64,000 nucleotides of DNA from Datnioides undecimradiatus (lineage: Eukaryota; Chordata; Actinopteri; Lobotiformes; Datnioididae), in the NCBI GenBank assembly GCA_008933995.1, contig WARS01000051.1, forward strand, positions 1,860,001-1,924,000, given 5' to 3'. Below, piece by piece: positions 3,753 through 62,253 of the stretch. The notes under the pieces are model-generated. The model was not told the DNA's origin. It worked only from the letters and a program-made list of their open reading frames with translations, and did not search any database. How positions within the stretch are numbered: position 1 is the first letter of the stretch; each line of letters begins with the position of its first letter. A program made the position numbers and the translations under genes.

Positions 3753-3814
3753 ATGGCTTCAACGACCTGCACCAGGTTCACCGATGAGTACCAGCTGTAC
3801 GAGGAGCTGGGGAA
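3753..3814 (+). CDS. camk2d: camk2d coding exon 1 (residues 1-20 plus two bases of K21)
   Basis: Encodes MASTTCTRFTDEYQLYEELG and the first two bases of K21, then the donor GTAAGT at 3815-3820. This is the CaMKII N-terminus and the start of the glycine-rich ATP loop. The start is the ATG at 3753, in a strong context (AACATGG, with A at -3 and G at +4); it matches the family start. The frame stays open upstream to a TTG at 3630 but contains no upstream in-frame ATG, so no N-terminal extension is supported. Human delta begins MASTTTC, so this protein is one Thr shorter and its numbering happens to equal that of alpha (K42, D135). Tyr16 replaces the Phe of mammalian delta. Confidence 0.95.
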
Positions 3815-6156: not shown

Positions 6157-6251
6157 GGGGGCTTTCTCTGTGGTGAGACGGTGCATGAAGATCTCCACAG
6201 GGCAGGAATACGCCGCCAAAATCATCAACACCAAGAAGCTGTCCGCCAGGG
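6157..6251 (+). CDS. camk2d: camk2d coding exon 2 (residues 21-52 plus one base of D53)
   Basis: A 95-nt exon between the acceptor CTGCAG (6151-6156) and the donor GTGAGT (6252-6257). It completes K21 and encodes [18 protein letters not shown], then [13 protein letters not shown], and the first base of D53. It supplies the rest of the glycine loop and the invariant ATP-binding lysine K42 in [14 protein letters not shown] is delta-like: mammalian delta reads MKIPTGQEY, while gamma and beta read VKKTSTQEY and VKLCTGHEY. The intron upstream is 2.3 kb and the one downstream is 36.3 kb, the largest in the window. Confidence 0.97.
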
Positions 6252-42394: not shown

Positions 42395-48996
<6,602 letters not shown>

Positions 48997-49051
48997 TGCG
49001 CCTCCATGACAGCATATCAGAGGAAGGATTCCACTATCTGGTCTTTGACTT
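48997..49051 (+). CDS. camk2d: camk2d coding exon 4 (residues 73-90 plus two bases of L91)
   Basis: A 55-nt exon with a strong acceptor (TTTCTCTCCAG, ending 48996) and the donor GTAAGT at 49052. It completes V73 and encodes RLHDSISEEGFHYLVFD plus two bases of L91. This covers N-lobe strands beta4 and beta5 and leads into the hinge; F89 is the expected gatekeeper position. The residues match all vertebrate CaMKII isoforms I know, so this exon does not help assign the paralogue. Confidence 0.97.
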
Positions 49052-51527: not shown

Positions 51528-51593
51528 AGTTACCGGCGGTGAGTTGTTTGAGGACATTGTCGCCAGGGAGTACTACAGTGAAGCCGACGCCAG
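51528..51593 (+). CDS. camk2d: camk2d coding exon 5 (residues 91-112 plus two bases of S113)
   Basis: A 66-nt exon after CTCCTCCAG (ends 51527), with the donor GTCAGT at 51594. It completes L91 and encodes [21 protein letters not shown] plus AG of S113. It covers the hinge and helix D, including the [10 protein letters not shown] segment that contacts substrate. The last codon is split AG|T, which forces the next exon to start with T or C. Both exon 6 versions start with T. The donor GTCAGT is less ideal than GTAAGT, which may make the following exon choice easier to regulate (inference). Confidence 0.97.
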
Positions 51594-53048
51594 GTCAGTG
51601 CAATGCTCAGCTGCGTCGAGGTTTCTGGATCCACTGAGCAAATGTCACGTGAAACTTATTGAGTCGACCTTGGCGAAATAAAAGGCACATCCAAGCAGGT
51701 GCACGGCATGGAACGGTTAACAAAACTCCATCCGTTGCAAGTCCTGATGTTGCGTCACCAACCTGTCGCTGTGCGTTTGACTTTAAATGTACGTTACACA
51801 CAAAAATACAACCCTATCTCATTGTGCACAAGTGTTTCCTGTTGTGCTGCCTTTGATGTGCCTTTTATGCCAGGAAACTTCTCCTTCTACACATCTTGTT
51901 CTACCTCTGTCCTTTGATTATTGGTCTACTCTTCCCCAATTTGATCTCCTTACCCGTCTGTGAAAAATCCACTCCAAAAAGAACCCCGTCTGATGGAAGG
52001 AACGCAGCTTGATCATAGCTTGTTTCCATTAAAGCCTCATTCAAGGTTCCTTTTTTTAATAACTCTGAAGATCTTCAGTGTTTCCATCCAGCTGGATTGA
52101 AGCTTGACTGTCGGTTGACGGGGCAGCTCCAGGATTTGTCATCGGGAGTCGTAACTCTTTTGATGTTAACGAGACAGTTGTTCATTCAGTGTTGGAAGAC
52201 TGAGATGTTGAGGATGTGGCCTCTTTGTAGTGGATTTTATTTGTTTGTAAAAGAGACGTTAAAGATGACATCAGAAAGAGCTTTATACATAAAAAGAACA
52301 TGCATGTGTCCTGTATTTTTCTCTTCTCGTTCAATGACTTAAAGGAACAGTTCAACAATGTGCTTTCTTCCCAAGAGTGGAGTGAAGGCCGGTCACATGC
52401 AAGCAGGAAGCAGGAGGAAACCGCTAGTCTGTCTCATTTTAAGATTAACACGTTTAATCTGAGCACAGCCACAAATGTAGATACTGAGGTGAGTCATGTC
52501 CTGGAACAGCTCAGCGCTATGAGTCTCATCACAGTGAGGTTGCTAGGTATGACTGTGCCTGCACGGAGGCCTATACCGAGATGTGTGCCATCTCACTGTA
52601 TCTGCATCATCTGATTAAAGACCCTGCATTACAGCAAGAGACAGAGAAGAGATATGTGTGGATAAACTGATAAAGATGGTTTAAAATGCCCCAAAATCAA
52701 AAAGAATCAGTTACATTTTGTTAAGATTGAAATTCAACAGATAAGATGCATTGTGTGAGTTTTGTTGGTGGCAGGCTAGCTGTTTCCCCCTGCTCCCACT
52801 CTTTATGCTAAGCTAGGCTAAGTACATCCTGACCGATACTGATCTCATCTGACTCTTGAACAGAGAGCAGTTCGACACATTTTCAAAATGTTGAACTATT
52901 CCTTTAAAGCATTTCCTTATTGTCAATCAAGTGTTGTTATTTCATGTGTTTGGTGTGTTCTGTCTGCCTGTTCTTGTTTCCTGACATTTACCTGTTCTCC
53001 CTCTTCCTCTCCTTTTTGCTTCTGGCCTGGTCCGTCTCTCCTCCACAG
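51594..53048 (+). other. camk2d: camk2d intron between exon 5 and exon 6A (1,455 nt)
   Basis: GT-AG intron splitting S113. The right half is mostly the TTAA-flanked element (52339-52907). The last 140 nt hold a strong pyrimidine tract (CTCCCTCTTCCTCTCC) leading to exon 6A. TGCATG occurs at 52301-52306. Splicing of exon 5 directly to 6B would remove 3,119 nt. Confidence 0.88.
52339..52907. mobile_element. TTAA-flanked nonautonomous DNA element with terminal inverted repeats
   Basis: The left end TTAAAGGAACAGTTCAACA (52339-52357) and the reverse complement of the right end at 52889-52907 match at 18 of 19 positions, both including TTAA. The right half reads CTAGCTGTTTCCCCCTG, TTTATGCTAAGCTAGGCTAA and TTTTCAAAATGTTGAACTAT, a combination I recognise from an abundant fish foldback/MITE-like repeat. 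TTAA target sites are used by the piggyBac and Kolobok superfamilies; which applies is unresolved. There is no transposase frame. The element ends 141 nt before exon 6A. Confidence 0.78.
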
Positions 53049-53121
53049 TCACTGCATACAGCAGATTCTAGAAAGTGTAAATCATTGCCACATAAATGGC
53101 ATAGTGCACAGGGACTTAAAG
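53049..53121 (+). CDS. camk2d: camk2d alternative exon 6A, delta-type (residues 113-137)
   Basis: A 73-nt exon between the acceptor CTCCTCCACAG (ends 53048), with a long pyrimidine tract upstream, and the donor GTTAGT (53122-53127). It completes S113 and encodes HCIQQIL followed by [17 protein letters not shown]. This is helix E and the start of the catalytic loop; D135 of HRD is the catalytic base. ESVNHCH and GIVHRD match mammalian delta, with Ile128 in place of Leu. It is one of two same-length versions and is mutually exclusive with the exon at 54713-54785. Relative to 6B it has the stronger acceptor and the weaker donor. A transposable element ends 141 nt upstream. Confidence 0.96.
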
Positions 53122-53351
53122 GTTAGTAAAGTGACGACAGCAACAGCAAAAAGACGCGGGCCTGCCCACCTGTGGCACCTTGCCTCGCTCCTCCGCTGCC
53201 TGATCAGTCGACCAATTAACCTTTCACTGAGTGCCGCCTCCTCCAAAACCACACCCCCTCCTCCACCAGTCACCCTCCCACACGGCCCCCTGCTGCAGGG
53301 CGTTGCGGGCTGGTTGGCTGGAGAGGAGGCGGTAGGTCATTTAGTAAAGCT

Positions 53352-53390
53352 GGGAGGGGCTGGTAGAGCTCATCATGGCCTGCCCCTCCC
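53352..53390. repeat. 9-bp GC-rich inverted repeat, 21-nt loop
   Basis: GGGAGGGGC (53352-53360) pairs exactly with GCCCCTCCC (53382-53390). It lies 231 nt after exon 6A and 19 nt before a TGCATG motif. Confidence 0.85.
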
Positions 53391-53408
53391 GTATGCCAGA
53401 ACACAAAG

Positions 53409-53414
53409 TGCATG
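53409..53414 (+). promoter_or_regulatory. TGCATG (RBFOX-type) motif downstream of exon 6A
   Basis: The RNA UGCAUG is the known RBFOX recognition sequence. It lies 288 nt after the end of 6A, a side from which RBFOX usually promotes inclusion of the preceding exon. Function here is inferred; a single hexamer can occur by chance. Confidence 0.35.
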
Positions 53415-54703
53415 TAGCATCTGTCCAGAACCATGCTCTGACACAGCCACCGAGAGGCTGCAGGCTGAGAGAGGAAGAGGAGGACCAAGAGGAGGATGAA
53501 GTGGATCGGAAACCGTCTTCCATGACAATTTGTATTCCAATTTATGACTCTAATGTTGTCTCAGTGCCACAATTTATGCTTTGTTTACATATCAGAAGAA
53601 GTGTTTCACTCACCTCTACCGTTAGTAAGACCATTATGTCCACATAAAGTGCAGGAGCTTCACATCAGTGCGTGGCTCTGTTTACATTAGGGCTATCTGA
53701 GGGAAGGATTCAGTATCCACTGCTGAAATGTGCCGCAGGTGTGATTCAAACATGGTTTTAATTTACCGCGTTGGTCTTCTGTGGTCCAAATATGCCCACT
53801 TCAAAACAAAATCCGTTTCTGTCGGCATAATTACAAACCCCACTGACCCCAGCAGGAGCCACGGAGAAAAGGGAAAGTCGGCTGATTTTGATTGTTCCCA
53901 GTGTGACGGTGTAATCAATCTGTCACTAGCACTCAAGTTAGTGTGGTAACAGGAGCTGTTCCAGGAGTGATTCAGTGAGGAATGAGCCCCAGGTTTTGTT
54001 TCTGATTGTTGGATGAAGTGGATTTCACCTGTTCACCTACAGAATAACGTTGTGCGTTCTGTTGGTTGAGGGTCCACTCTGTGTCTTTTCAAACATATAA
54101 AATTAGAGAATGGTGCTTAGTTGGAGAATTAACACTAGCTCCCTCCTGATCACCAAATTTGCTAGCTCCAGTCGTCTGTTTCGACACAGCTACTGACGAT
54201 ACTGCCGGTCTGCTGCAAACAGCCTTCTCGTTTTAATTTGAGGTCCAGCAACCAGCTGCAAACTCTTCCACACTGTTGGCTTAGTACTGAGCAGCATTAT
54301 CAGATTGAAACCAAGCCCTCCTACGTGTCCCTCTTCAGTCTCTCAGAGTCCAGCCTCCGGTCGGCCAGGAGCTAACACCACTTCTGTTTTGAGACTCGGG
54401 CAGAGAATTGGCCACGCTGTCTGAGCAGTGTCACATCTCTGCTCTTCTTCTCTGGGTCTGTCACAGCAGACATCACGTGGTGACCGTGGCAACAAACAAA
54501 AATTACCTTTTTAACGTTGGTCAAGTGGTCCATTTTGCCAAATTACCCCTCTTGGCAGGTGGGGGTGGGGCTGTTCAGTTGCCACAGTTGCTGTACATTC
54601 CCCGACACTCACACATGGCCAGCAGCTCCCCGAGTGTCAAAGCGAGCTCACAGCCACAGACAGTGAGTGGTAGCTTGTCACTAACCCATGGCCCCCTGGT
54701 GTT

Positions 54704-54709
54704 TGCATG
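54704..54709 (+). promoter_or_regulatory. TGCATG (RBFOX-type) motif overlapping the exon 6B acceptor
   Basis: TGCATG directly precedes the CAG acceptor (TTTGCATGCAG) of exon 6B. RBFOX bound at or upstream of a 3' splice site usually represses the exon. It also interrupts the pyrimidine tract, making the 6B acceptor weak. Function inferred. Confidence 0.45.
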
Positions 54710-54712
54710 CAG

Positions 54713-54785
54713 TCATTGCATTCAGCAGATCCTAGAGGCTGTGCTCCACTGCCACCAGATGGGCGTGGTCCACCGCGACCTCAAG
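54713..54785 (+). CDS. camk2d: camk2d alternative exon 6B, alpha/beta-type (residues 113-137)
   Basis: A second 73-nt exon 6, 1,591 nt downstream of 6A, with acceptor TTTGCATGCAG (ends 54712) and donor GTAAGT at 54786. It completes S113 and encodes HCIQQIL followed by [17 protein letters not shown]. It differs from 6A at 5 of 25 residues (S122A, N124L, I128Q, N129M, I131V) and matches what I know of CaMKII alpha and beta. The DNA is 50/73 identical to 6A and much richer in G/C at third positions (20 of 24 codons against 12 of 24). There are no stops, both splice sites are intact and HRD is present, so it looks functional and not a decayed copy. Whether it is expressed cannot be seen from the DNA. 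Confidence 0.88.
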
Positions 54786-57254
54786 GTAAGTAGACTCACC
54801 ATAAAGACCACAGAAATACAGATTCTCCTGTTCCTTCGTGTCCTGTGGCCTCATGCTCCAACACGTCTGACCTGTCCTCTGCATTTGTCTCTGCACTTTT
54901 CCTCCAGTCCTCCATTTTGTCGCTGTTGTTATCTGAAGACTTGTTTAAAAGTCGTATCACGCCCTTGCTTTCCCACGACTTTTGCATCTTCCAAGGTCAT
55001 GTTTGATAAAGTATCAACTTCACACTTCAACCAAGCGTGTACTCTGTTTGTCCCCACAATGGCTGTAGAAACAATATAAAAATATAAAAATAGCTATGGA
55101 AATAAGTTAAGTCTAAATTATATAAATCATGATAATATGACCAATTATTAACTTTATTCAAAGTACAAATAAACAACATATTTCACAAAAATCTGTTCAT
55201 ATTGGATGATGTGAGTTGAAGGAACACAGCAAATAAACCCAGACTGTTGTGGTTGTTGCTGTCTTGTCGCTAACATTTTAGAGGTCAAAGATGGTGAGAT
55301 TTGAGGAAGTCTGAGAGATAGAGCTCTCTGACTGAATCAGTGATTCTCAAGTTCAGCGGTTGGCAGAAAATGTCTTCCTCCCGGGATCAGATCGTATGAT
55401 ATTAGCTCTAACACAGTCTGACATCTCACAACATCCTGACAAAAAACACCAGCGTGTCAGATTCGTTCTTGCCTTGTCTTGCCTGGTGTGTGCACTTCTT
55501 TTGCACGTTCTGCGATGTTGACCTACAGGAGCACACTACCAGCAACAGCAAAAGCAGCTGCAGAACAGTTTGATGGCACCTCAAACATGGCTTCCCCTGT
55601 TCCTCCATTATTGTGGTGCATTTGAAGAATAATGTACCTCTATGATTGATGTCCACCAAGCACTAAAAGAGTAACTGAGGCATTAAACAGTTTGTTATTT
55701 TAGGTTAGAGGTACAATATAGGGTATGGTCAGTTATTAGACTATTTGAATGCATTTACTTGATGCATTCCTTTGTGGAATGTTGTTGAAGTTCAGACATC
55801 GGAGGTAATTATGCTCACAGTGGTCTTGTCTCTATCTCTAATGCTGCCTTTTCTCCTTGTGGTTTGCTCCCAAAGCTCTGATTTGCCAATCAAATGAACC
55901 AGGTGTGTCTGAGGTTTGGTTTACACCCAAGCAATAATAAGCTCGGATTTTGCATTTACTCACTGCCGCCTCGCTGCGCTCTGATTGGCTGTTGCCAGGC
56001 AGCTGCCATGGCTCACTGCAGAAACACAAAGGCAAAACAAATACAACCGAAACAAATAAGCAAGCTGCAGAGCAGAGACACTATGGAAAACACCGTTTGG
56101 CACATTGTGTGTATATTCGTGTGATTTCTCAAGGTAATGATTTTGGTAGGAAGAGGAGTCTACAACACACCCCCACACATACAGAAACACACAGAAACAC
56201 CCAGGAAAGCAATACATAGCTGTCTTTATAAAGCTCTTGTAAAACTTTATAGTTTATTTGAAGAGTCTAGACACATAATTCTATTTATGATTAGTTTTTT
56301 ACAGTTTAAATCAGACGGGCGGATCTCGTAGTTGTAGTTTATCCCCGAAGTGCTGTTATTTCTACACTTGAAAAAGAGGCAATTGAAAGTGTGACAGTAT
56401 CCCTCAGATAGGAGAACCAGTGCGAAACAGGCCATTTGCCAGGTTGTATAATGAATCACAATGCGGTGGTGAACTATCTAGAGGATGTGACAGATATTCA
56501 TGAGAACCAATTGGTGTGAATCCTGCAGCAGTCAGTGCTGAAACAGCCTCACCACCACTGCCACATCTTGGTGCGTTTCCCACAGCTACAAGGTAAAGTA
56601 GGTCCTTTGAGGATGACGAGTCCCCACGATACCACAAGAAAGAGGAAGCATTTAAACATGCAAAATAGGGACAGGGTTTGTGAAAGATTAAAACAACGTC
56701 CATGTCCAGGATTCCAGAATTCACAGATCCATGAACCAAATGTTGCAGAGTGCGTGAAGCAAACTAAACCTGATACAGTCGCTTTGCTCCGCTGGATTAA
56801 TGCTCCACCTCTGACGGAGTTCAAAACATAAAGACACAGGATCTGAGCATGGTTGAGTTGCTGACTGTCTACGTAGTTCTTCTCACATCTGGTTACCAAT
56901 CTGTTTTTTTTTTTTGTGGGTCTTTTGACCCAGATGTCTCCAATGAGGCCATATCAAATCCAATGTGAAAATTGCTTTGATGAGATGATGGCCTCAATCC
57001 ATCACAATGATAACCCAAATGCCACAAATGACCCTTTCAGCAAAGTACCACCCTACCTACAGTGCCCTGAATAACTCTTACCAAATACCCAAATTCCCAA
57101 AATGCTTAGCCCTTCACCAAACCATGATAGTATGGCGGGTATAGCTGCAAGCAATTCATCATGGGCAAATCACTGTGGTTTGGGTATAAAGCTTTAGTCC
57201 AGTCTGGTCTGTGATCGCTGTGAAGTAAAACATCTTGATCCAGACTCATTTCTG

Positions 57255-57360
57255 CATGGTCATTCAGCGGGGGAACAGGTCACCTTACTCATCAGAATCC
57301 TGGTCCGTCTTCAAAAATCGTTTGACGACCTACCTCATCCAAGAAAACCTATTCACCTAA
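57255..57360 (+). mobile_element. Possible LINE 3'-coding remnant
   Basis: A short frame reads ESWSVFKNRLTTYLIQENLF and then a stop, resembling the C-terminal end (SVFKSRLKTYLF-like) of fish L2/CR1-type LINE proteins. Only about 20 residues are recognisable, so this is tentative. Confidence 0.3.
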
Positions 57361-59234
57361 AATGTTCTTTCTGTTTGTAGCAGCTGAAACATGGACATGG
57401 AAGTGCAGCAGCACTTATTCTTAAAAGCCTCTCGCAGGTCTGCTTGACTTGTTAAATGAAAGAAAAAGCTGAGATTTACATACAGCGTTTATGCTCGCTG
57501 GGTGGTTTACGGAGTGCGAGAACAACGTGAACCATATGTTGTGGCCTTCAGAGTAATACGCTGTGTAACTCGTTGGGTAATATGGGATATTCCCTGTTGA
57601 GATAAAGAAGTTATCTGGTGGGAAGCTGTTTGTGTGCAACATTTTGGCGGCGAGTGCAGCATGTGCATTTGTCAGTGGGCAGTCCTCCAGGCTGAAGCAG
57701 AAGCACCAGCCTGGTTCAGGAGGCCAGTAATTCTATCTACTTTATGGCTCGCTGTATTAGACAGGATTCAATTACAGCTATTACACACCATCAGCAAGGA
57801 AAGGCTATAAATCCTGATCAGTATGATGAACCATACATTGTATTCACATGCAGAAGCCCCGTCATGGATTTCTGTGAGTTTGTTTACCCGGCAAACATTT
57901 TCGAGGTTAATATACATGAAATGTGGTGATTTGACAGCATCAGTAATGTGGCTTGTCGGTGATCTTGGCCACATCCTGCACTTTGCCATCAGTGAAATGC
58001 TTTCTGGGTATTTATTTGTATTCATCACCCTGTGAGTTTGACTGTGTTTGCATGTGGGATGCCGTTTGTAACCCTGCCTGCAGGCCTGAGAGCCACACTG
58101 GGTGGTAATTAAAGGTTGTCTGAATGCTTCACAGGTTTAGTGATTTGTAAAAGAAAAAAACCCAGCGATGACACATCAACAGGCGTTCAAGCACACTGAG
58201 CACCCGTCATCCATATGGTACCATCTGTGTGATCATAAAGCGGATTATAAAGCACGATCCAGCTTATGAGGAACCATCTTTCAGTCTTTATACTTTAAAA
58301 GACTCCCAGTACCAGTTTATCATAACTATGGCTTTGTTTTTCATATTTTTTGTCATTTTGTCTGTCAGCTCTGATAACATCACGCAAAAGATAGATGCAA
58401 AGTTGGAGGAGATGCTCGTTCTGTGTGAGGTTCGATTCCATCTTCTGTAATTGCATTGGTCATATCTGTTTTTATATGTCGCATATGGCTGAAATATGTT
58501 AAGTTTAGCCTGTTGATATTACACGAAAGAAGCATTAAGAGTGAATTACAGTGGCAGCGAACTCAAAACAGCTTCGTCATTGTCGTGAGAACAAACTCTG
58601 GCTCCTTAGCCATCCAGAAAGTCAAGTGCCTGAAGCTGCAGAGCTGTAACAGTTTTCACATCAGTGTAATCTTGATCTTCTGCTACAGTATTAAGCTCGG
58701 CGATGGGACGTCAAATGCACTTTGAGAGATGACGTCAACTCTAGTAGATCCTCTGAAGTTTTAATGTCCACATGTTGGTGCCTTCTGACCTACTTAGAGT
58801 TTCTAATCCAGTTATTAAACATGATGATTCAAACAAGATCGTTTAATGGCAATCCAAGTTGTGGAAGGTTACTTGGTGTTGGACTCACGGGAAAACTGTA
58901 TACACAGTAGGGTAGGTCACAGTTGGACCAGGTAGTTGGACTAAAGCTTCAGTTGATGTTAACACCAATTGGGTTTGGTTAGAGTTAGTGATTGAGAGCT
59001 GCCCTTTGCCATAGTTGATACATGATAACCGACATGGTCAAACTCAAAACTTACTTTCCATGATTCAACCCTTTCCTGCCCTCCAGGATTTTTCCTGGGG
59101 TGGTTGCAGTGGTCTGGAGTAAACGGATGGCGGGGAGTGTTTGCAATGACTGCATGTGGCTGATGAATGCATCTACTCCTACTCTTCCCACTCTCTCCCC
59201 TTTCCCTTTAACCCTCTACCCTTCCCTTCACCTC

Positions 59235-59269
59235 CTCAAACCTTTGCCCGCAACAAAGGTTTGAGGAAC
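59235..59269. repeat. Perfect 14-bp inverted repeat, 7-nt loop
   Basis: TCCTCAAACCTTTG (59235-59248) is the exact reverse complement of 59256-59269, with loop CCCGCAA. It lies 1.64 kb upstream of exon 7, after a C/T-rich stretch. Confidence 0.95.
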
Positions 59270-60912
59270 TGCACGACTCGGAATTCACACATGCTCTACT
59301 AACTGCTCGAGCAACCTTGGAACATGAACATTGACCGCTTGGAAATGGATTTCTATTGATTTCAGTGAAAGACGTGTTCGATGCCTTCTGGAATTAATAT
59401 GTCAGGCGGTATAAAAAAGGATGAGTTGGTGATGTGTAGGCAGCGCATAAAGAACCGCAGAAGCCACAATTCATTCTGGACCTCTGAATGCAATAGAAGC
59501 ATTAACGAGCAGGACTAGAAACACAAGAACCACAGCAAGCAGCAGCAGTGAGGACGCGAAGGATTTTTAAATGTGGGAAGTTGGAAGGTTTGCCTTGGTG
59601 TCCAGACGGGACAGCTGGAGGCAACAGGTGTCCAAGTTAAGACACCTGTTGTAGTTTAGAAAAGATGGACATTCATATGAGGCTGTGAGTCATAGAGACA
59701 TCAACAGATCCTCTTCAGTATTCCTTAAATCTTGAGACTGAATGAAATCTAGATTCAACTCTGATGTGATGAATATAAATCCAGGAGGCCTCTTAACATA
59801 TTATAAAAAGTGATGCTTCACCTTAAAAGAGTTTGTACTAAAGTGTGCAACATCACTTATTAATTGACCCAAATTGCTTCATGGATTACCCTCATGGGTT
59901 ATACAGCACATCATTTGATAGTTCAAACGTTACCTCTAAATGAAAATTTGCACACACATCAGGAAAAGTGTAACTCGTTCTTTCCTTAGTGTGGATATAC
60001 GAAGACTAATCGACCAAAACAATGAGCCGCTGGATGAGCTAGCTGCAGTGGAACACAGCTGGGGTTGTAGAACAAAGGAGATCCATTTAGGACCATTTGG
60101 TGGTCCACAGGCATGCATAGAAACAGTCGGAGATGTGAAATGAGAAGTGAGAAGCTCTGAATGAATTATGGCTCGTGTGACCACTGTTTGGATACTTGAT
60201 ACTTGGATACTAAAGAGTTGCAGAACAACAGCAGCTACCCTTTATTTGTAAATGTCCGTTACAGCACAGTCATTTTTAATAATTACTTATTTGGCTCCGT
60301 CAAGGCAACTGCTTTGAAAATGTCAACAAATACATAATTCATCCTCTCTGAGCTGTTCCTAAAGCTCCACCCCATTACTCCTCCTCCTGCTGCCGGGGTT
60401 TGGCACGAGTCACAGTCCGCCTCGCTCACCCGGTCCGTCTCCAGCAGTGGGGCTCGCACGCCCAATTTGACCGCAGCCCGCCAGCATGATGTTGAACAGC
60501 ATCCACCCGTGCTGCTGGGCTGAGGGGCAACTTTGAACCCTGACTGAACCTGAACGTAATCGGGCTCAACGTGAGTCAGGCTTTGCATGCATTTCGAGGC
60601 CGGACTGCAACTCTGAGCCTTCCTCCGGTAGACGTTTATCAGTTAGTCCGGCCGGCCACTCGCTGGAGCACAGCTATCAGCCCCAACCGCTGAACGCTCC
60701 AACTCGCTGTATGACATCAGGCCTTAATGTTATTACCCCATGAACTGCAATAACCCCTCCTGCTGCTTTAGAGCCTGTGAGCTGCCTGTAACTAAAACAC
60801 GAGGCCACCTCTAATGCTTTAACTCACTCTAGTCAAATTTTCACTTTGAAATAATAAATCACAGTAAAATGCAAAGCGCTAAAAGTTTTTATCCGTGTCT
60901 CTTCACTCTAAG

Positions 60913-61015
60913 CCGGAGAATTTGCTCCTAGCCAGCAAGTTGAAGGGGGCAGCGGTCAAACTGGCAGATTTTGGACTGGCCATTGAAGTGCAGGGAGACC
61001 AGCAGGCATGGTTTG
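60913..61015 (+). CDS. camk2d: camk2d coding exon 7 (residues 138-171 plus one base of G172)
   Basis: A 103-nt exon after an acceptor reading CTCTAAG (ends 60912), with the donor GTGAGT at 61016. It encodes [20 protein letters not shown], then [14 protein letters not shown] and the first base of G172. It carries the rest of the catalytic loop (K137 from exon 6, N140), the DFG motif (D156, F157, G158) and the start of the activation segment. QGDQQAW fits delta and beta; alpha reads EGEQQAW. The exon begins on a codon boundary, so it joins equally well to 6A or 6B. TAAG is a less common acceptor than CAG. Confidence 0.97.
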
Positions 61016-62169: not shown

Positions 62170-62253
62170 GTTTCGCTGGTACACCAGGGTACCTGTCTCC
62201 AGAGGTGCTGAGGAAAGACCCCTACGGCAAGCCGGTGGACATGTGGGCCTGCG
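62170..62253 (+). CDS. camk2d: camk2d coding exon 8 (residues 172-199 plus one base of G200)
   Basis: An 84-nt exon after GTTCCAG (ends 62169), with the donor GTAAGT at 62254. It completes G172 and encodes [20 protein letters not shown], then PVDMWAC and the first base of G200. It forms the end of the activation segment (GTPGYLSPE), which CaMKII uses without activation-loop phosphorylation, and the start of the C-lobe. VDMWACG is the most useful paralogue marker: delta has Met, alpha Leu, beta and gamma Ile. No exon 9 (expected to begin VILYILLVGYPPFW) is visible in the remaining 1.7 kb. Confidence 0.97.

Follow-up and report, generated by a model that had tools for sequence, protein, structure and literature searches.

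Mutually exclusive exons within the catalytic domain of a serine/threonine kinase are known from JNK, whose exons 6a and 6b are used as alternatives in the way that the two exons described here, 6A and 6B of a CaMKII gene, would be, although the JNK pair encodes a different part of the C-lobe and is of unrelated origin. Human tandem-duplicated exons have been catalogued, and the available text of this catalogue counts 236 events with CAMK2D among the cases, and gives bony-fish orthologues for more than 90% of such events (PMC9741552). The CAMK2D event was mapped on structure 6ayw, a 302-residue delta chain, where it crosses the kinase domain and forms a cluster beside the ATP site (PMC9741552, available text). 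A second source, in the portion available, lists four mutually exclusive clusters for CAMK2D (PMC5740500). The published human event resembles the 6A/6B pair in that it concerns the same family member and in that its exons, homologous alternatives to one another, also encode part of the kinase domain (PMC9741552, in part). The delta pair is thus probably already known, because the human event fits exon 6; this assignment comes from its position, the available text giving no exon letters. In contrast to what we describe here, the available portions of both sources make no mention of pairs in beta genes, of fish CaMKII or of a regulatory site (PMC9741552, PMC5740500).

Other tandem pairs offer further points of comparison. 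The available text of PMC9741552 describes FYN and calcium-channel genes in which tandem exons were followed by gene duplication and the paralogs kept one exon or the other, as is also seen in CaMKII. The FYN pair, like the CaMKII pair, is located in a kinase gene, but the FYN exons encode the SH2-kinase linker together with the beginning of the kinase domain while the CaMKII exons encode the stretch before the catalytic loop (PMC9741552, in part). In addition, unlike the partition described there for FYN and the calcium channels, three CaMKII paralogs of a single genome keep both exons. With regard to regulation, the accessible part of PMC10202634 reports that ACUAAY upstream marks exons that are repressed by QKI, including one exon in each of two mutually exclusive pairs, those in Slc25a3 and in Rbfox2. 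These pairs have ACUAAY upstream of one exon just as is found before 6B, but they differ in a further occurrence of the motif downstream of the exon that is activated (PMC10202634, in part). The 300 nt after 6A contain no such motif. The same portion of text names Camk2d as a target of both QKI and RBFOX1, there for its linker isoforms.

Splice variation of CaMKII is placed in the linker and C-terminal regions in the available passages of PMC7991079 and PMC9772828, one of which treats all variants of a given gene as having the same kinase domain. Among the literature matches listed by our searches, which were not aimed at QKI, we did not find the letters of the pair, any beta gene in which 6A and 6B occur together, or the ACTAAC site. 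In this study we describe exons 6A and 6B in a delta gene and in its paralogs from one fish genome. We regard it as highly likely that the delta gene contains a tandem-duplicated, alternatively used exon pair derived from an old duplication, with the choice between the exons probably made at the 6B acceptor.

Anatomy and coding content of exons 6A and 6B

The window is a stretch of 64,000 nucleotides that corresponds to positions 1860001-1924000 of contig C8 in a 581-Mb assembly of 497 contigs. It contains coding exons 1 to 8 of a CaMKII gene, all on the plus strand (Table 1). The gene is CaMKII delta, as the best PDB match of the 199-amino-acid model built with 6A is a delta chain (441.5 bits), followed by the best alpha (415.6 bits), gamma (407.5 bits) and beta (407.1 bits) chains. 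Upstream of exon 1 there is a remnant of a retroelement, a reverse-transcriptase fragment (Pfam RVT_1, E 5e-15) at 1949-2506 on the minus strand.

Table 1. Exons and motifs of the delta gene, numbered from the first base of the window
Feature	Position	Strand	Basis or remark
Exon 1 (from ATG)	3753..3814	+	tblastn, splice model
Exon 2	6157..6251	+	tblastn, splice model
Exon 3	42540..42599	+	tblastn, splice model
Exon 4	48997..49051	+	tblastn, splice model
Exon 5, upstream partner common to 6A and 6B	51528..51593	+	tblastn, splice model
Exon 6A, delta-type	53049..53121	+	sequence, splice model; human delta chains are the nearest of known structure
TGCATG, RBFOX-type motif about 290 nt 3' of 6A	53409..53414	+	motif scan
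ACTAAC, presumed 6B branch site and QKI-type motif	54680..54685	+	also in both beta genes
TGCATG directly 5' of 6B acceptor	54704..54709	+	motif scan
Exon 6B, alpha/beta-type	54713..54785	+	sequence, splice model; equals human alpha/beta chains over the exon
Exon 7, downstream partner common to both	60913..61015	+	splice model; holds stops 60984 and 60929
Exon 8, VDMWAC (delta letters)	62170..62253	+	tblastn, splice model

A prior sequence-only reading of this DNA had proposed two tandem 73-nt exons of the same phase with intact GT-AG sites, and this was confirmed both in the sequence and in the splice models. Each exon is bordered by AG and GT, takes two bases of its first codon from exon 5 and finishes on a complete codon ahead of exon 7. 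The four junctions of that proposal (51593-53049, 53121-60913, 51593-54713 and 54785-60913) had been placed correctly, and the spliced models 1-2-3-4-5-6A-7-8 and 1-2-3-4-5-6B-7-8 are both open over 199 amino acids. Inclusion of 6A and 6B in series leads to a stop at 60984 and skipping of both leads to a stop at 60929. The double-inclusion stop is 29 nt short of the end of exon 7, and mRNA with both exons is expected to undergo decay since exon 8 and later junctions lie beyond this stop. This frame logic points to the use of exactly one exon per transcript. Each transcript would connect exon 5 to exon 7 through one of the two, and those with both or neither would lose the frame and presumably be destroyed.

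A rival possibility is that the pair functions mainly in dosage control, with double inclusion or skipping generating unproductive mRNA instead of the pair generating two proteins. Both irregular outcomes do hit a stop in exon 7, and the distance of 1591 nt between 6A and 6B leaves their joining sterically unhindered. Dosage control as the main role is nevertheless improbable, as both exons keep conserved and differing protein letters that dosage would not need.

The two exons are identical at 50/73 nucleotides and 19/24 residues, while matches at other places in the window reach no more than 8/24 and those in 30 random 20-kb sequences no more than 9/24. Thirteen of the 23 nucleotide differences are at third codon positions, with nine codons changed silently and five by replacement, and none of 20,000 simulated random placements of 23 substitutions gave five or fewer amino acid changes without a stop. 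The resemblance is thus not a matter of chance, given both the far lower matches elsewhere and the outcome of the simulated placements. Additionally, the substitution pattern together with the match counts points to purifying selection.

Exon 6A agrees with human delta at 23/24 residues and exon 6B agrees with human alpha and beta at 24/24. Five residues change from 6A to 6B (S122A, N124L, I128Q, N129M and I131V in alpha numbering), all of which precede HRDLK in what is presumably the alpha-E helix and the turn after it. The idea of an alternative catalytic-loop exon therefore stands as regards the exon swap but not as regards the loop, as HRDLK is identical in 6A and 6B and the variation sits before it. 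Among the eight sequences compared, A122, L124 and M129 are confined to 6B, alpha and beta, and the others (which include fly, worm and human gamma) have S at 122, N or A at 124 and N or H at 129. Thus 6B is derived at these three positions. At 128 and 131, however, the fly residues agree with 6B rather than with 6A, so 6A is not ancestral throughout. Over the whole exon the fly protein is nearly equidistant (22/24 to 6A and 21/24 to 6B), worm has 19/24 to 6A and 16/24 to 6B, and human gamma has 19/24 to 6A and 17/24 to 6B. Transcripts with 6A would retain the delta form of the alpha-E helix and those with 6B would bring in the alpha/beta form, and the two proteins would be expected to retain kinase activity while differing in a patch at the surface or in the packing. 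An effect of the swap on docking or on inhibitors would be speculative.

Exon 6 in the CaMKII family of the same genome

With exon 7 as a probe (E <= 1e-6), at least seven CaMKII genes were detected in the genome. Three of these contain 6A followed by 6B, namely the delta gene of the window (C8), a first beta gene (C238) and a second beta gene (C328) with exon frames that are disrupted in the assembly, and 6A is always first. Only 6A is present in a second delta gene (C325) and in two gamma genes (C465 and C337), and only 6B in the alpha gene (C285). No extra exon-6 copy with more than 8/24 identity was found on the plus strand across exons 5-7 of these last four genes. The proposal that camk2d contains tandem, phase-matched coding alternatives is thus supported by the sequence of the window and also by two paralogs in this genome that are arranged alike.

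The gene names are based on several comparisons. C238 has human beta as its best match, with agreement of exon 8 and later letters, C465 has human gamma as its best match, and C285 was named alpha by a narrow margin (103.4 bits versus 102.3 for delta). C325, C328 and C337 were named by letters that they have in common with the genes so assigned. The second beta gene has small indels in both exon-6 copies (L046 6222 onward and L047 1229 onward) with exons 5, 7 and 8 intact, and these indels reflect either assembly error or decay. The alpha gene (L013 7665-9783) is compact, with exons 5 and 7 lying 607 bases apart, and has indels in both of these exons and further on, for which assembly error and decay are likewise the two explanations.

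A tree was built from the eight intact exon-6 copies over a short alignment of 73 columns, in which the row of the second delta gene is long; the copies from the second beta gene were omitted from the tree and from the identity table owing to their indels. The 6B exons of delta, first beta and alpha form a single clade with support of 96/95. Forcing either the delta pair or the first-beta pair together costs about 21 log units, with p-AU values of 0.0005 and 0.0018, respectively. As an origin within each gene is rejected and the 6B exons form one clade, the duplication is older than the split between delta and beta. That split goes back to the vertebrate genome duplications. The duplication would thus have preceded the separation of delta and beta, likeliest in a single CaMKII gene ahead of the genome duplications, and a later partition would have left both exons in delta and beta, 6A in gamma and 6B in alpha. 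Conservation of the pair as described here refers to three paralogs of one genome, one of them with frames disrupted in the assembly.

The 6A exon of the first beta gene (L011 2827-2899) carries the gamma-type letters HQHDIV and clusters with the 6A exons of the gamma genes (89/91). This grouping suggests a later common ancestor for the 6A of beta and gamma than for delta 6A.

A competing explanation for the alpha/beta letters in a delta gene is that 6B was not inherited but recently copied into delta from camk2a or camk2b by gene conversion or exon transfer. The 6B protein sequence is identical to alpha and beta, and between delta and first beta no other exon matches the DNA identity of 6B (66/73, with no amino acid changes) in an exon-by-exon table of seven exons that omits alpha. 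The apparent excess of DNA conservation was not retained as a finding, as it gives p values of 0.02-0.04 against exons 6A, 7 and 8 and of 0.2-0.3 against exons 3, 4 and 5, uncorrected. A recent copy is unlikely on three counts. Both beta genes hold 6A followed by 6B as delta does, so that the whole pair is common to the genes and not 6B alone; the flanks of 6B are only partly alike (22/43 upstream and 11/43 downstream); and human CAMK2D also has a tandem-exon event in the kinase domain (PMC9741552, available text).

Least probable of all is that 6B survives as a relict and has dropped out of the spliced mRNA. Although the copies of the second beta gene are disrupted in the assembly and no 6B was found in the second delta gene, the frame of 6B is intact, its donor score is the highest of nine exons, it equals human alpha/beta at all 24 residues and its 7/73 nucleotide differences from the first beta copy change no amino acid. 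The pair is real and ancient, and very probably functional.

Splice sites and candidate regulation

Splice sites were scored with frequency tables, and the scores are to be taken as a rough ranking only. By this ranking the delta 6B donor, a consensus AAG/GTAAGT, comes first among nine exons with a score of 8.6, and the 6A donor (AAG/GTTAGT) is lower. The first beta gene has a consensus 6B donor as well (AAG/GTGAGT) together with a lower-scoring 6A donor (AAG/GTGTGT). The acceptor tract of 6A is better than that of 6B in both genes, with scores of 5.4 versus 3.1 in delta and 7.7 versus 4.8 in first beta. The splice sites of the pair are unexceptional for this gene, as the acceptors of exons 2 and 7 score below that of 6B and the donors of exons 3 and 4 score below that of 6A. 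Outside of the pairs, the 6A exon of the second delta gene (L008 4053-4125) has a low-scoring donor (AAG/GTTTGT, 0.9) though it is seemingly the sole choice.

The hexamer ACTAAC occurs within 60 nt upstream of 3 of 35 acceptors, which are exactly those of the three paired 6B exons, where it starts 33, 32 and 38 nt before the exon. It is absent from the last 60 nt before the 32 other acceptors examined, that of the unpaired 6B of alpha among them. This count leaves out exons 1-3 of the paralogs and includes alpha with exon 6 only. Such a distribution would arise 1 in 6545 times if random, a value to be read with the fact that ACTAAC was picked out only once 11 motifs had been scanned and that the three sites are homologous and not independent. 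We presume that ACTAAC is the branch site of 6B, and it is also a QKI-type motif. As a sequence motif, ACUAAY close upstream of 6B is what characterizes a QKI-repressed exon, and it is the one ACTAAY in the 6A-6B intron, with none found within 300 nt after 6A. Counting against a role of QKI, ACTAAC doubles as simply a good branch site.

Other means of control were considered and ranked lower or rejected. The 6A-6B intron has two TGCATG motifs versus 0.5 expected, and GCATG directly 5' of 6B would argue for repression by RBFOX, which is a brain and muscle factor in the available text of PMC10202634. RBFOX as the main regulator was placed second to ACTAAC, since the GCATG before 6B is present in the delta and second beta genes but absent from the first beta gene, which has GCATG 5' of its exon 7. 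Competing RNA structure was rejected, as inverted repeats over 51594-60912 (26 pairs, the longest 32 nt at 72% complementarity) revealed no docking/selector-like system. Steric exclusion by a short intron is ruled out by the 1591 nt between the two exons. A search for Rfam families at gathering score gave none in the window.

The choice between 6A and 6B is probably set at the 6B acceptor, as 6B combines a consensus donor with an acceptor tract weaker than that of 6A and with an ACTAAC that QKI could occupy. Cells rich in QKI would accordingly be predicted to use 6A, and cells poor in QKI, presumably neurons among them, would use 6B.

A probable old switch in the CaMKII catalytic core

The exon pair is ordinary in kind and has been little noticed in the CaMKII literature examined. 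What the present data add of most interest is that both beta genes contain it as well and that the paired genes have the branch-site hexamer in common. The pair in delta and beta genes of one fish points to an old switch. A conserved swap in the core would mean that cDNA work on delta (and here also on beta), inhibitor comparisons and isoform quantification may mix two kinase cores. The five-residue swap can also be viewed as a natural experiment on the alpha/beta versus the delta type of core.

More tentatively, the ancestral vertebrate CaMKII may have been able to splice in either a general 6A or a neuronal 6B, with QKI blocking 6B at its branch site outside of neurons; alpha, the brain CaMKII, would later have fixed 6B while delta and beta remained switchable in this fish. 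We hold this scenario to be possible but doubtful, and it is weakened by the description of QKI in the available text of PMC10202634 as enriched in brain as a whole, and also in striated muscle. If it is true, then the catalytic core that CaMKII has in brain would be a splice isoform that became frozen, and some fish tissues would still produce beta with a gamma-like 6A.
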